The notes beneath the pieces are model-generated. The model was not told the origin of the DNA and did not search any database. It saw only the letters and a program-made list of their open reading frames with translations. Below are positions 2,731-38,656 of a stretch of DNA of 38,884 nt, piece after piece. This stretch comes from Marinifilum sp. (lineage in GTDB: Bacteria; Bacteroidota; Bacteroidia; Bacteroidales; CG2-30-32-10): contig DYDE01000022.1 of the NCBI GenBank assembly GCA_020718065.1, forward strand, positions 1 through 38,884. Direction: 5' to 3'. The translations under genes were made by a program, and so were the position numbers. How positions within the stretch are numbered: position 1 is the stretch's first letter; each line of letters starts with the position of its first letter.

Positions 2731-4335
2731 TTATTCTTTCACAAACTTTGCTATGCTAATGCCTTGTTCGTTCCAACATTTTACAAAATAAAGCCCGCCT
2801 GGCAAATCATTTATATCTATTTGAAACTTGTTACCCGAAGCATTTATCTTTTTTACTTCCTGTCCCTTTATATTGATAATTGTTAATTGCCCATTGCTAA
2901 TTGTTACCTGCCCATTGTTAATTGTTAATTGTTCATTGCTAATTGTTATTACCTTGTTTGCAGGATTGGGATATACGCTTAAGTTGTTGTTGTTTTTGCT
3001 TAACTCTTTTACTCCTATTACCGGCGATAATTTTACTACCCAATAATCTCTGCCACCTTGATTTCCTGTAACATCTCCATCGTTTGAAAGACTCTCGCCG
3101 GCAACAATATATCCGCCATCCGTAGTTTGCTGGATTGAATTTGCTTCATCATAACCAATTCCGCCTAATGATTTTTGCCATGCTATTGTTCCTGTTGAAT
3201 TTAATTTTACTACCCAATAATCATCAAAATTTGTCGTTCCATGATGACCTGTAACGTCTTCATCATTTGAACTACTACGGCCGGCAATAATATATCCGCT
3301 ATCTATAGTTTGCCAGATTGATTTTGCTCCATCAACAGAAGTCCCACCTAATGATTTTTGCCATTCTATAGTTCCTATTGAATTTAATTTTACGACCCAA
3401 TAATCAGCATAAGTTGTTGTTCCATGATGTCCTGTAACATCTCCATCATTTGATTTACTATAGCCGGCAACAATATATCCTCCTTCAGTAGTTTGCTGGA
3501 TTGAATGTGCCATATCCCAATTAGTCCCGCCTAATGATTTTTGCCATTGTATTGTTCCAGTTGAATTTAATTTTACTACCCAACAATCATCACCACCATG
3601 ATTTCCTGTAACATCTCCATTAATTGAAAGGCTCCCACCGGCAACAATATATCCGCCATCCGTAGTTTGCTGGATTGAATTTGCTTCATCACTAAAAGTC
3701 CCACCTAATGACTTTTGCCATTCTATGGTTCCTGTTGAATTTAATTTTACTACCCAATAATCATAATAACCTCCTGCAGATCCGTGATGACCTGTAACAT
3801 CTCCATCATTTGAATAACTATTGCCGGCAACAATGTAACCGCCATCCGTAGTTTGCTGGATTGAATATGCAAAATCATCATAAGTCCCGCCTAATGATTT
3901 TTGCCATTGTATGGTACCTGTTGAATTTAATTTTACTACCCAATAATCAGAAATATTTATTGATCCATGATGTCCCGTAACATCTCCATCAATTGATTCA
4001 CTAGAGCCGGCAACAATATATCCGCCATCCGTAGTTTGCTGGATTGATTGCCCCCAATCATCTCTAGTCCCGCCTAATGATTTTTGCCATTCTATTGTTC
4101 CTGTTGAATTTAATTTTACTAACCAATAATCATAACTTCCATGATTTCCTGAAACATCTCCATCATTTGAATTACTTAAACCGGCAACAATATATCCGCC
4201 ATCCGTAGTTTGATGGATTGAATATGCAACATCACCATTAGTCCCACCTAATGATTTTTGCCATTGTATGGTTGGTTGTGCTGTTGCAATATTTATTGCA
4301 AATAATGCAGCTAATATGATGTAAAGTTTTTTCAT
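2731..4335 (-). CDS. Secreted repeat protein (seven ~58-aa WQKSLGGT..DGGYIVAG..DYWVVKLN repeats) with T9SS type A sorting domain
   Basis: 534 aa: signal peptide, seven repeats, then LSVYPNPANKVITI...GGLYFVKCWNEQGISIAKFVKE. Confidence 0.9.
   Translation of the reverse strand: MKKLYIILAALFAINIATAQPTIQWQKSLGGTNGDVAYSIHQTTDGGYIVAGLSNSNDGDVSGNHGSYDYWLVKLNSTGTIEWQKSLGGTRDDWGQSIQQTTDGGYIVAGSSESIDGDVTGHHGSINISDYWVVKLNSTGTIQWQKSLGGTYDDFAYSIQQTTDGGYIVAGNSYSNDGDVTGHHGSAGGYYDYWVVKLNSTGTIEWQKSLGGTFSDEANSIQQTTDGGYIVAGGSLSINGDVTGNHGGDDCWVVKLNSTGTIQWQKSLGGTNWDMAHSIQQTTEGGYIVAGYSKSNDGDVTGHHGTTTYADYWVVKLNSIGTIEWQKSLGGTSVDGAKSIWQTIDSGYIIAGRSSSNDEDVTGHHGTTNFDDYWVVKLNSTGTIAWQKSLGGIGYDEANSIQQTTDGGYIVAGESLSNDGDVTGNQGGRDYWVVKLSPVIGVKELSKNNNNLSVYPNPANKVITISNEQLTINNGQVTISNGQLTIINIKGQEVKKINASGNKFQIDINDLPGGLYFVKCWNEQGISIAKFVKE
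2871..2952. repeat. CAATTA(A/G)C micro-repeat expansion inside the T9SS domain coding sequence
   Basis: attgataattgttaattgcccattgctaattgttacctgcccattgttaattgttaattgttcattgctaattgtt encodes NEQLTINNGQVTISNGQLTI. Confidence 0.75.
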
Positions 4336-11743: not shown

Positions 11744-12037
11744 TAAATTGCAGTTTATACTTATGCAATTACTTCATTTTTAGAATAAATTGAAGTTTAT
11801 AAAAGTGCGACAACATCATGATATGAATAAACTACAATTTTTCATAGGTTGGAATATTCGTATAAGGGATAAATAGGAGTTTATCATGACTCCGAACATT
11901 CGTATAGGGTATAAATTGGAGTTTATTCTGGCTCCGAATTTGCGTATAAGTGATAAACTATAGTTTATTCTCAATCGTAATATTCGTATAATAGGTAAAT
12001 TAGAGTTTATTCTCAATACGCAATTGCATATGAATTA
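11744..12037. repeat. Seven degenerate repeats of exactly 42 bp
   Basis: Units start at 11744, 11786, 11828, 11870, 11912, 11954 and 11996. Approximate consensus TAAAYTnnAGTTTATTCTnnnTCCGAATATTCGTATAAGnGA. Confidence 0.9.
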
Positions 12038-34275: not shown

Positions 34276-34764
34276 ATGGAAACTACAAAAATTGTTATCA
34301 GACCTTTTGCTTCTAAAAAGGGGAGTATGTCCTTGTTCTTTTGTTCGCTTATTGGGATAGTGGTGCTCATTCCCGCAATAGTCATTTCTATATTGATAGA
34401 TAACTATAAAATGATACCTTTTTTTTGTATTTTATCTGTTGTATTTATTGCACTTGGAATAGTGCTGTTTCTTGTTTTCCCTAGGGTGAAAATTGTATTC
34501 GATTTGAATAGTAAAAATGTTGTAATAACTTCGAACAAAGCACCTAAACAAATAATTTCATTTGATAAACTGCAACCTTTTCAGGTTTATGAGGTAATTC
34601 GTGGTTATGCACATCAATATTACTGCAGAAACATATCGTTCGGAGATTATTCCGATTTGTTTTTTAGTGCCCGCCATGTGAAGACGCTGAAAAAAGCAAA
34701 GAAACTTCATCAGCTAACCGGAATAGGTCTTATTGATATTGATGGAAAGTTCGTTAATGTGTAA
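34276..34764 (+). CDS. Hypothetical protein with two N-terminal TM segments
   Basis: 162-aa ORF downstream of the HD protein. Confidence 0.7.
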   Translation: METTKIVIRPFASKKGSMSLFFCSLIGIVVLIPAIVISILIDNYKMIPFFCILSVVFIALGIVLFLVFPRVKIVFDLNSKNVVITSNKAPKQIISFDKLQPFQVYEVIRGYAHQYYCRNISFGDYSDLFFSARHVKTLKKAKKLHQLTGIGLIDIDGKFVNV

Positions 34765-34836
34765 TAGATGCTTTGAAGACTGGGTAAAGATATTTTTTAA
34801 TTTGTTCTTACATTTGCATAACGTGGGTTTTAAGTA

Positions 34837-35470
34837 GTTAAAATCCTTAGAATTCAATCAGAATCGTTAGCATATTCTGCTAACTTTTAAGAATATTGCG
34901 CTGACTTCAAAGAAAATTCCGCTAACATCGAAGAAAACTCTTCTAATTTCAAAGAATTTTATGCTAACTTCAAAGATTTTTAATCTAACGTCCTGGAATT
35001 TTAATTAGGACCTATAAGTTTTCTCTTCTGATTTTGAAGAATTTTCTTTTAACCTTCAGGTTTTTTAAGCTGACGTGCTGGAATATTGATCTGATCTCGG
35101 CGTATGGTTTGCTAACTTGTGGTTATCCTATGCTAACCTGACGTTATGTTATACTAACTTGATGTTATGTTATGCTGACTTGTGCGTATTCTATGCTAAC
35201 TTTACAGTATTCTATGCTAACTTGCCGTTATGCTTGTCTGATTTCCAGTTATGTTTTCCTGATTTCCAAGTTTGATTGTCTGATCTCCAGGTATGCTTTC
35301 CTGATGTGTAAGTATTGTTCTCTGACTTTCTTGTTTTGTTTCCGGATGTGTTCGCATGCGTTTCGAACCTGACAGAATGTCAGCTGACATCGTCGCGGAC
35401 TCGCCGGACGTGACAGAATGTCAGGTGACGGACAAGTTTTGTCTCCGGATGGGTATGTTTTTAAAGTTGA
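34837..35470. repeat. Degenerate 21-bp tandem array (core 34879-35362: 23 units with one 1-nt slip)
   Basis: Unit starts at 34879, 34900, 34921, 34942, 34963, 34984, 35005, [35027], 35048, 35069, 35090, 35111, 35132, 35153, 35174, 35195, 35216, 35237, 35258, 35279, 35300, 35321, 35342. Theme (g/t)CT(a/g)AC(t)t...(g/t)TATnnTat. Confidence 0.92.
35369..35424. repeat. Two copies of palindrome TGACA-GAA-TGTCA 41 bp apart
   Basis: tgacagaatgtca at 35370-35382 and 35411-35423, flanked by cagCTGAC / cagGTGAC. Confidence 0.85.
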
Positions 35471-35542
35471 TTTTGAAAAAATAGCATTTGGGATAATTTT
35501 TTATTTACAGTTTTTGGAGTGCACAAGGAGTTGTACAAGGGA

Positions 35543-35590
35543 ATTTACGATAGTTCGACTAGCTCACTACAAGTTTTGGATTTGCGATTA
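35543..35590. repeat. 48-bp dispersed repeat, copy 2
   Basis: atttacgatagttcgactagctcactacaagttttggatttgcgatta; one mismatch to 506-553. Confidence 0.85.
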
Positions 35591-35623
35591 ATTTTGACAT
35601 AAATTATGGATTTACGATTTTTT

Positions 35624-35672
35624 TACCACAAAGAACACAAAGGATTTGCAAGAAGGCACACAAAGAAATAGA
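35624..35672. repeat. Diverged 'accacaaagaacacaaagg..ggcacacaaag' repeat
   Basis: Same word family as 310-350 and 2042-2345. Confidence 0.6.
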
Positions 35673-35681
35673 AAGTTGCAA

Positions 35682-35720
35682 AATAAGAAAACCAGCGCTA
35701 TTAACGCTGGTTTTCTTATT
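35682..35720. terminator. Terminator hairpin
   Basis: AATAAGAAAACCAGCGctattaaCGCTGGTTTTCTTATT. Confidence 0.85.
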
Positions 35721-35734
35721 AAGATTTTTGTTTT

Positions 35735-38656
35735 TTAGTATCCAAATACATCAGAAAGGTTGAGGTATTCTATTTTTCCGTATTTTTCAAGTGTCTTAAT
35801 ATCCAGATCCTTTTTATTACCAAGAATCAAAATAGTAAAGTTCTTGTTTTTAAGATATTTTTCCTGGAAGGTCTTCAGATCATTAAAAGTTAAAGTAGGT
35901 ACTACATTATAAATATCTTTATTAATATCGGTAGTAAGTTTAAGTTTCATTGCAGATTCGTAACTAAAAAGCACATCTGTTTTGGTTGTTCTGTCTGTTC
36001 TTATACGTTGTATAATTGCATCTTTTGCAGCATTAAAACTCATTTCAGACGCTGGCATATTGTTAAACAAACCCATCATTCCTTTCATTGCCTCAGGCAA
36101 CTTATCGTTTTGAGTACCTATGTATGAGAAAAGATAATTATGTCTATCAAGACGACGAGCTGTATTATAACCTGCATAGGCACTATATGCTAATGCTTTC
36201 GATTCTCTTAATTCCTGAAATACGATTGAAGCCATACTCCCACCAAAATATTCGTTAAATAAACTTACAATAGGATAATTGGCTTTGTTGAATTTGTCTG
36301 ATTTCGAAATCATAACAATCTCAACTTGTTTCATATCATAATCTACAATATATACTTTGTTTTCGGTATTGTCTAACTCAGTAAATTTTGTTTCTGTAGG
36401 TATTGGTTTCAATTTTGCAGGTATATTATGGTATTTATTAATCAAAGCAGTAATACTTGCCTGATCTTGTGGTCCGTAAAACAATATATGATGCTCATAA
36501 GAATTAAGTTCTTTAATTCTCTTTATTAGTTCATCTGCTTTAACTGTATTTAACTCCGATTCGCTTAATATATTTGTAAATGGCGATTTTTTGCCATATA
36601 TTCCATAGCTATACATTGCCTTCCAAAGAATGGCGTTTTTTGATAATTTGTCATCTTCTCTTTGCTTTAATATATCATTAAACAAATTGCCAAGTGCTTC
36701 TTCATTTGGTTGAGGGTCGGCAAGTAGTTCTTCGAAGAGTTGTGTACCTCTTTCCATATTCTCTGCCAAACCCGATAAACTAACCCACAATTGATCGCTA
36801 CCAGCACTAACATAAAACGAACAACCTGCTTTGTAAAATTCCTGTTTCAACTGAGCAGGAGTGTATTTTGATGTTCCCAGATATTCTAAATAATCAATAG
36901 CAAGTTTTATATACTTATCGTTATTGATACCCATATCAAATACATAATACATAGAAAAAGTATTGTTCTCATCATTTTGTTTATAATACACAGGTATATT
37001 ATTTTTAACAGAAAACTTTTTAATATCTTTTTCATAATCCATAAAAACAGGTTCTATGTTTTTAGGTTTCATGGTAAGCAATTGTTTATAAAAATCCGAC
37101 TGTGCATCTCTGTTCAATTGAACCGGAGTAATGGTAGGTTTCATTACTTTTTTAACATTATTATCAACCCCTGTTCGTTTATAAACAACAACATAGTTAT
37201 TGCTATAGTTTTTATTAACAAAAGCAACAATATCTTGTTTGGTAATTTTAGATAGTCTGTCAATTTCGTTTACTTTATTTTCCCATGGGGTTTCATTAAT
37301 AAAAGCATCTACCAACTCCATATCTCTTGACATATTGTTTTCCTGTTTTTTTATGTCTTCCAGTTTCAGGTCATTAATAATTGCGGGCAACAACCAATCT
37401 GGAAAATCACCTTTCTTAAGTAATTCTATTTGCGAAAGAATCAAATCTTTCACTTCTTCCAGTTTTTGTCCATCTTTTGGCACACCATATAGCATGTGTT
37501 CAGAATAATCTTTCTGAATAGAAGCATAAGACCCTGCCTGAATAACTTTTTGTGCCTGATTAAGATTTAGATCAATTAATCCAGCAGTACCATTTGTTAA
37601 AATCATGCTAACCAACGTAAGCATATCCGCATCCTTCGTATTTGCTCCACCTAAACGAAAACCTAAAACCAGACTTTCAGCTTCTGGTCCAAAAACTTCT
37701 TTTACAACAGGTGAAGTTATTGAAGCTTCAACAGGAACAACAAAATTTGTAATAGGCTTCGATTGCCATGTTCCAAACTTGCTTTCAATTAATTTAATTG
37801 CTTCATCCGGATCAAAATCTCCCGACAAACAAATAGCAATATTATTAGGAACATAACGAGAATAAAAATAGTTTTTCAAAGATTTTAAAGATGGGTTTTT
37901 TAAATGCTCCGCTTTACCTATTGTTGTTTGCAATCCATAAGGATGTTTTAAAAACAAACCGGCATACAAAGAATCGTACATTTTATCATTATCGTTATCA
38001 AGGCTCATGTTCTTTTCTTCATAAACAGTTTCCAACTCTGTATGAAATATACGGAAAACAGGATAAAAGAAACGATCCGATTCTATAGTTAACCATGCCT
38101 CCAGTTGATTAGAAGGAATTTCATTTATATAAACAGTTTGTTCAAACCAGGTAAAAGCATTGGTATTTGTACCACCAATGGCTGCCATTAATTTATCATA
38201 TTCATTAGCAATTGCGTATTTTGCTGCTATTCCCGAAATGCTATCAATTAAATGATAATTATATGCACGTTTCACAGAATCTTTCGAACTTCTGAAAACT
38301 TCAAACAAGCTGTCAATCTTATCAAGATAAGGTTTTTCTGCAGCAAAGTCCATCGTACCAAAATGCGAAGTTCCCTTAAACATCATATGTTCTAAATAAT
38401 GCGACATCCCTGTATTATCTGCAGGGTCATTATTACTTCCTGTTCTCACCGCAATAGCTGTTTGAATTCTGGGAGCATTTTTGTAAACCGTCATATAAAC
38501 AGTGAACCCATTTGAAAGAGTATATATCCTTGTTTTCAAAGGATCGTTTGCTACAGTTTTATAATCATATTTTTTTTGTGCAAAAAGACTATGTGCTCCA
38601 AGTATATTAATTAAAACAATAACACCAATTAGTAAAATTTTAACTTTTCTTTTCAT
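35735..38656 (-). CDS. M16 (insulinase/pitrilysin) family zinc metallopeptidase, two M16 domains
   Basis: Signal peptide; GMSHYLEHMMFKGTSHFG (HxxEH), ETVYEEKNMSLDNDNDKMYDSL; a C-terminal second M16-like half without HxxEH. Confidence 0.94.
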   Translation of the reverse strand: MKRKVKILLIGVIVLINILGAHSLFAQKKYDYKTVANDPLKTRIYTLSNGFTVYMTVYKNAPRIQTAIAVRTGSNNDPADNTGMSHYLEHMMFKGTSHFGTMDFAAEKPYLDKIDSLFEVFRSSKDSVKRAYNYHLIDSISGIAAKYAIANEYDKLMAAIGGTNTNAFTWFEQTVYINEIPSNQLEAWLTIESDRFFYPVFRIFHTELETVYEEKNMSLDNDNDKMYDSLYAGLFLKHPYGLQTTIGKAEHLKNPSLKSLKNYFYSRYVPNNIAICLSGDFDPDEAIKLIESKFGTWQSKPITNFVVPVEASITSPVVKEVFGPEAESLVLGFRLGGANTKDADMLTLVSMILTNGTAGLIDLNLNQAQKVIQAGSYASIQKDYSEHMLYGVPKDGQKLEEVKDLILSQIELLKKGDFPDWLLPAIINDLKLEDIKKQENNMSRDMELVDAFINETPWENKVNEIDRLSKITKQDIVAFVNKNYSNNYVVVYKRTGVDNNVKKVMKPTITPVQLNRDAQSDFYKQLLTMKPKNIEPVFMDYEKDIKKFSVKNNIPVYYKQNDENNTFSMYYVFDMGINNDKYIKLAIDYLEYLGTSKYTPAQLKQEFYKAGCSFYVSAGSDQLWVSLSGLAENMERGTQLFEELLADPQPNEEALGNLFNDILKQREDDKLSKNAILWKAMYSYGIYGKKSPFTNILSESELNTVKADELIKRIKELNSYEHHILFYGPQDQASITALINKYHNIPAKLKPIPTETKFTELDNTENKVYIVDYDMKQVEIVMISKSDKFNKANYPIVSLFNEYFGGSMASIVFQELRESKALAYSAYAGYNTARRLDRHNYLFSYIGTQNDKLPEAMKGMMGLFNNMPASEMSFNAAKDAIIQRIRTDRTTKTDVLFSYESAMKLKLTTDINKDIYNVVPTLTFNDLKTFQEKYLKNKNFTILILGNKKDLDIKTLEKYGKIEYLNLSDVFGY

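Follow-up and report, generated by a model that had tools for sequence, protein, structure and literature searches.

A degenerate intergenic array in Marinifilum sp. with a 21 bp register kept better than its sequence

The window analysed here is a 38,884 nt stretch of the Marinifilum sp. genome (contig DYDE01000022.1, assembly GCA_020718065.1). Between a gene for a 162-aa protein with no Pfam match and a convergent M16 peptidase gene, this stretch carries a long array of 21 bp units. These two genes and one for an HD-domain protein were the neighbours scanned, and no rep or par gene was found among them. A strong terminator-like hairpin, with a 16 bp stem and a T-rich tail, is located between the array and the M16 gene (35682–35720). 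Other repeats are present in the window. Tandem repeats at 1995–2344 and 2426–2690 have units of 134 and 138 bp, with parts of the second recurring in the genome. At 3059–4273, 183 bp repeats (6.7 copies) are part of the coding sequence of a 534-aa protein with a Por secretion tail domain. A heptanucleotide array of ATTGTTA-like units is found at 2872–2948, where the 21 bp period is better conserved than the 7 bp period, and the genome has related heptamer arrays in several other places. An intergenic array at 11852–12017 has a 42 bp period in four copies and is possibly another member of the 21 bp class.

The 21 bp array itself is confirmed. As the earlier note had described, 23 units of 21 bp are present, at 34880–35363, with a single +1 slip after 35005. 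Most share the core CTRAY, which starts at 34880, 34901, 34922, 34943, 34964 and 34985, then at 35028, 43 bp past the last of these due to the slip, and from there on a 21 bp grid up to 35322. It is nearly invariant, being present in 20 of the 23 units; in the unit at 35049 it is replaced by TTAAC. Pairwise identity among the units has a mean of 0.54 (range 0.19–0.86), with approximately 46% of positions differing. The autocorrelation proposed as a check gave the expected result, the self-identity at lag 21 over 34837–35470 being 0.568 versus 0.279 in Markov shuffles (z of about 16), with further significant peaks at lags 42, 63, 84, 105 and 126. TRF independently calls a period of 21 or 63 at this location. 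Weaker units, which the earlier note had traced to about 34837 and 35470, do flank the array on both sides; those downstream of 35363 contain additional slips, and the whole is now seen as a larger dispersed element (Table 1). Likewise, the array is not an open reading frame throughout, as had been noted: all frames contain stops and the longest stop-to-stop stretch overlapping it is 83 aa. A CRISPR array is rejected, since the units are head-to-tail without spacers.

Table 1. Components of the dispersed element in the window and its copies elsewhere in the genome
Feature	Position	Strand	Remarks
Whole dispersed element: leader, 21 bp array and tail	about 34786..35480 (~700 bp)		intergenic
Shared 5' leader segment, weak units from ~34849	34786..34879	+	aligns in C92 and C190 copies
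Array block 1: six 21 bp units, core CTRAY	34880..35006	+	
Divergent unit containing the +1 slip	35007..35027	+	slip common to C149 and C92 copies
Array block 2: sixteen 21 bp units, register unbroken	35028..35363	+	
Degenerate tail units with slips, like the GGACGTCGTCGCGG array family elsewhere in the genome	35364..35480	+	
Full copy	C149:40273-40974	+	
Full copy	C92:5716-6463	-	
Copy cut by contig end	C190:1-150	-	

Three more copies of the element, with 82–89% identity and unrelated flanks, were found by searching the genome from which the window comes (4.08 Mb in 206 contigs). In the C149 copy the alignment to the leader begins only at about 34812–34824. The three full copies, including that of the window, differ pairwise by 49, 55 and 56 substitutions. 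The sole indel among them is of 63 bp, exactly three units, which the window copy lacks at about 35181 and the C149 and C92 copies have. The number of units in the full copies turns over at one change per approximately 80 substitutions. The slip near 35005 is also seen in C149 and C92, and so predates the dispersal of the copies. The dispersed copies have thus kept their register while substitutions accumulated. By position modulo 3 these substitutions are uniform (13/11/8, 11/10/14 and 13/14/12 in the three comparisons), and this indifference to codon position indicates that the array is not a heptapeptide gene. The CTRAY columns are not clearly slower evolving than others between the full copies, so that no binding sequence is evident. 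A DNA similarity search of 59 relatives found no homologue of the element, and in a genome of the same genus synteny with the locus is lost past the M16 gene.

Out-of-phase indels are depleted in the arrays. With homopolymers excluded, they number 0.010 per substitution in six array pairs, some of which have a copy in common. In other non-coding repeats of this genome that have diverged to a similar degree, the figure is 0.097, which makes such indels approximately ten times less frequent in arrays (Fisher p = 1.7e-7). At the control rate, 7.7 indels would be expected for approximately 80 independent substitutions; no out-of-phase indel was observed (Poisson 4e-4).

The 21 bp period recurs across the genome, and among short periods it is the dominant one in the non-coding DNA. 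In 988 kb, which partly consists of stretches chosen for their arrays, TRF found 31 arrays with period 21 and a further 27 with periods of 42, 63, 84 or 105; periods outside the multiples of 21 account for at most 10 arrays each. The unselected part of this census, 570 kb in 40 stretches picked by contig number alone, contains 1174 positions at lag 21 but not one at lag 19, 20, 22 or 23, counted as 84 bp windows with at least 60% self-identity. The genome-wide excess at lag 21 that had been anticipated is therefore present. The arrays are nearly all intergenic or within ORFs that are not gene-like, and no clear preference was seen in their orientation relative to the flanking genes. Heptamer arrays aside, most share no unit sequence, although a few families are found at several sites. 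A motif common to the arrays reached 4.23 bits versus 3.95 ± 0.12 for column shuffles (maximum 4.27) and is not clearly above them. CTRAY is frequent in the family of the window array and in some relatives, where the stretches bearing it were in part selected by a search for CTRAY; among the 40 unselected stretches no array has a consensus in which it is clear. That the arrays have the 21 bp spacing in common, but not the sequence, suggests that the spacing is what is kept.

Relatives were scanned with patterns in which one short anchor recurs every 21 bp. Arrays of this period but of other sequences are present in G001 of the same genus (TAAGAGGAAAATGACCCTTGC), in G002 and G004 of the same family (CTAACTTGGATTTCACGGAGC and CTAACTTAGGCATGGTTGTTC) and, at the level of the order, in G043, G155 and others. 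The main point of the earlier note, a phase far better conserved than the sequence, has therefore held in the genome-wide test, and relatives show the same period in other sequences. Seven TAA anchors with period 21 were found in 55 of 198 genomes and with period 20 in 14 of 198, and in those 23 genomes that have 10 or more period-21 matches the totals are 1586 at period 21 versus 148 at period 20. Heptamer arrays, and possibly coding heptads, share the period of 21 and are part of these numbers, which should therefore be seen as a lead rather than a clean test. The same scan at period 22 found no match within the family. In 1.4 Mb from 80 Bacteroidota loci the sole clearly non-heptamer lag-21 array is at locus L189 (the same region as G004:C362), the other lag-21 matches having a strong 7 bp sub-period. 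The distribution of arrays is patchy even inside genera (G070/G174 and G071/G175). Very many 21 bp anchored arrays are seen in G155, G043, G111, G073 and G070, all of the same order, and their congeners can have almost none. Arrays of 20 bp and 21 bp occur together in G004, G043, G097, G099, G132 and G155, hence not every genome strictly requires 21. Units of strictly 20 bp were seen in G004 (C176, C253 and C321), G155 (C8 and C75), G043 (C15 and C63) and G132 (C116 and C197).

The earlier note had raised the possibility of bent DNA. In a wedge model, predicted curvature has a mean of 68 in the arrays, versus 40 in shuffles and 59 in unit-permuted arrays, and falls to 48 with units cut to 20 bp and to 32 with units padded to 24 bp. 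In this model the 21 bp spacing itself would therefore raise the predicted curvature, whatever the sequence. The window array, however, is no more curved than its unit-permuted self (51.5 versus 64.6) and only slightly above the intergenic background (45), and special intrinsic curvature is rejected. No AA/TT signal at 10.5 bp was found beyond the 21 bp period. An RNA-structured array is likewise rejected, since controls with permuted units fold at least as well as the window array. At gathering thresholds Rfam gives no hit anywhere in the window, and its weak matches in 34700–35740 do not overlap the array. Quasi-palindromic units were seen in several other array families (L129, L130, L115 and L126), and in three of these (L115, L129 and L130) folding is better than after permutation of the units.

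The register of the array is kept, its letters are not, and turnover is too slow to clear indels, for which the simplest reading would be selection for a constant helix face. The array may therefore be non-coding DNA held in a register of two helical turns, where a protein that binds or bends DNA would find phased sites for docking or wrapping, an interpretation given a probability of about 0.4. The 21 bp distance between units, equal to two turns of B-DNA, would be under constraint, leaving the letters largely free. A protein with weak sequence demands would touch the same face of the helix every two turns, and could be nucleoid-associated or form a cooperative filament. Units would be gained and lost in whole multiples, with whole arrays now and then copied to other intergenic sites. 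Selection through the helix face, like the existence and nature of the protein, is something we infer from the behaviour of the repeats.

It is quite possible, as the main alternative, that a replication, repair or recombination process favours tandem duplications of two turns (20–21 bp) in any sequence, and that the arrays are its non-functional products in slow decay. A mutational origin of this kind explains why unrelated sequences have one length and why 20 bp and 21 bp arrays share six genomes. It also explains the patchiness, with hundreds of matches in G155 and none in many others, and agrees with the lack of a shared motif and of an orientation preference relative to genes. It covers the sequence independence, the patchiness and the 20 bp arrays of relatives at least as well as a docking site does. 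It fails, however, to predict the loss of out-of-phase indels from old dispersed copies relative to other repeats, except if small indels are intrinsically rare in the arrays for reasons other than homopolymers.

It is improbable that the arrays are phased sites for sequence-specific regulators or for partition-like proteins, of the iteron or centromere kind, with a separate protein for each array family. Cooperative site arrays such as iterons and parC typically have two-turn spacing, CTRAY is nearly invariant in the window array, and the quasi-palindromic units of some other families would suit such sites. The units are nevertheless far too degenerate, and between copies CTRAY shows no clear protection. 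A separate protein would also be needed for every one of tens of unrelated families, and the neighbours scanned do not include a rep or par gene.

No better placed is a minisatellite within a non-autonomous transposable element, MITE-like and comparable to BrickBuilt, in which any function would be that of a mobile passenger. The four dispersed intergenic copies, with a common leader and tail and unrelated flanks, are what such an element would produce. Candidates for a terminal inverted repeat are, however, limited to three A/T-rich sequences inside the 95% shuffle range, and most of the other arrays in the genome are not copies of the window element. Nor would such an element account for the 21 bp that unrelated arrays have in common.

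The decayed or hidden heptapeptide (coiled-coil-like) repeat gene that had been suggested, 21 bp being seven codons, is very improbable: although short open stretches such as SANIEENSSNFKEFYANFKDF occur, and coding-like heptad arrays with a 21 bp period are present in some genomes (G020, for example), the window array has stops in every frame, codon-uniform substitutions between copies and no mod-3 entropy bias, period-3 power across 21 arrays is not enriched and is below expectation, and no Pfam family scores above cutoff for four ORFs that overlap other arrays of the genome.

Minisatellites in bacteria are usually regarded as accidental, and the lengths of their units as arbitrary. In this case a single unit length is shared by unrelated sequences throughout one genome and turns up again in many relatives, with a register that outlasts the letters. 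This would point either to a DNA-binding system that reads spacing alone or to a mutational machine that makes two-turn duplications, and both would be new. A broader form of the docking-site interpretation is more doubtful, namely that some Bacteroidales lineages carry chromosome-wide, sequence-independent two-turn arrays with the register as the sole conserved property, a helix-face code by which a dedicated protein might organise or mark the chromosome. In that case the arrays would be functional satellite DNA in bacteria, with the information in the spacing rather than in the sequence.

No description of genome-wide 21 bp minisatellites, or of such a period, was found in the open literature searched. 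Plasmid iterons and partition-site (parC) arrays are direct repeats about two helical turns apart that are read on one face of the DNA, with well conserved units beside a rep or par gene. The window array resembles them in its two-turn spacing; unlike them, its units are degenerate, it is dispersed over the genome and it has no adjacent rep or par gene. The heptad repeats of coiled-coil genes have the same 21 bp period, whereas the window array is without an open frame or a codon signature.

Heptanucleotide STRR such as TAACTGA are present in Beggiatoaceae, Cyanobacteria and Bacteroidetes (PMC4679880). Like the 21 bp arrays they are intergenic and many per genome, and 21 is a multiple of 7. 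However, they are without a 21 bp unit, and they have a 7 bp sub-period that the 21 bp arrays do not; lag-7 identity in the latter is mostly 0.15–0.4 (0.27 in the window array). Because of this low identity, and because the period-7 component (harmonic 3) is not enriched over 21 arrays, an origin of the arrays from heptanucleotide repeats is rejected.

The nearest described element is BrickBuilt of Porphyromonas gingivalis, which has 23 bp units with 0–11% mismatches within an element and IS5-type terminal inverted repeats (PMC4596501). Its host is probably of the same order as the window genome. Both elements are intergenic and dispersed, with imperfect head-to-tail units of about two helical turns, and both have several copies with shared leader and tail segments. 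Promoter activity in both directions is among the criteria for a BrickBuilt-type element, and a consensus scan found no excess of promoter-like sites. The window element differs in its 21 bp unit, in the large proportion of positions at which its units vary, compared with little mismatch in BrickBuilt, and in having no terminal inverted repeat. It also differs in its genomic setting, where unrelated arrays have a common period.
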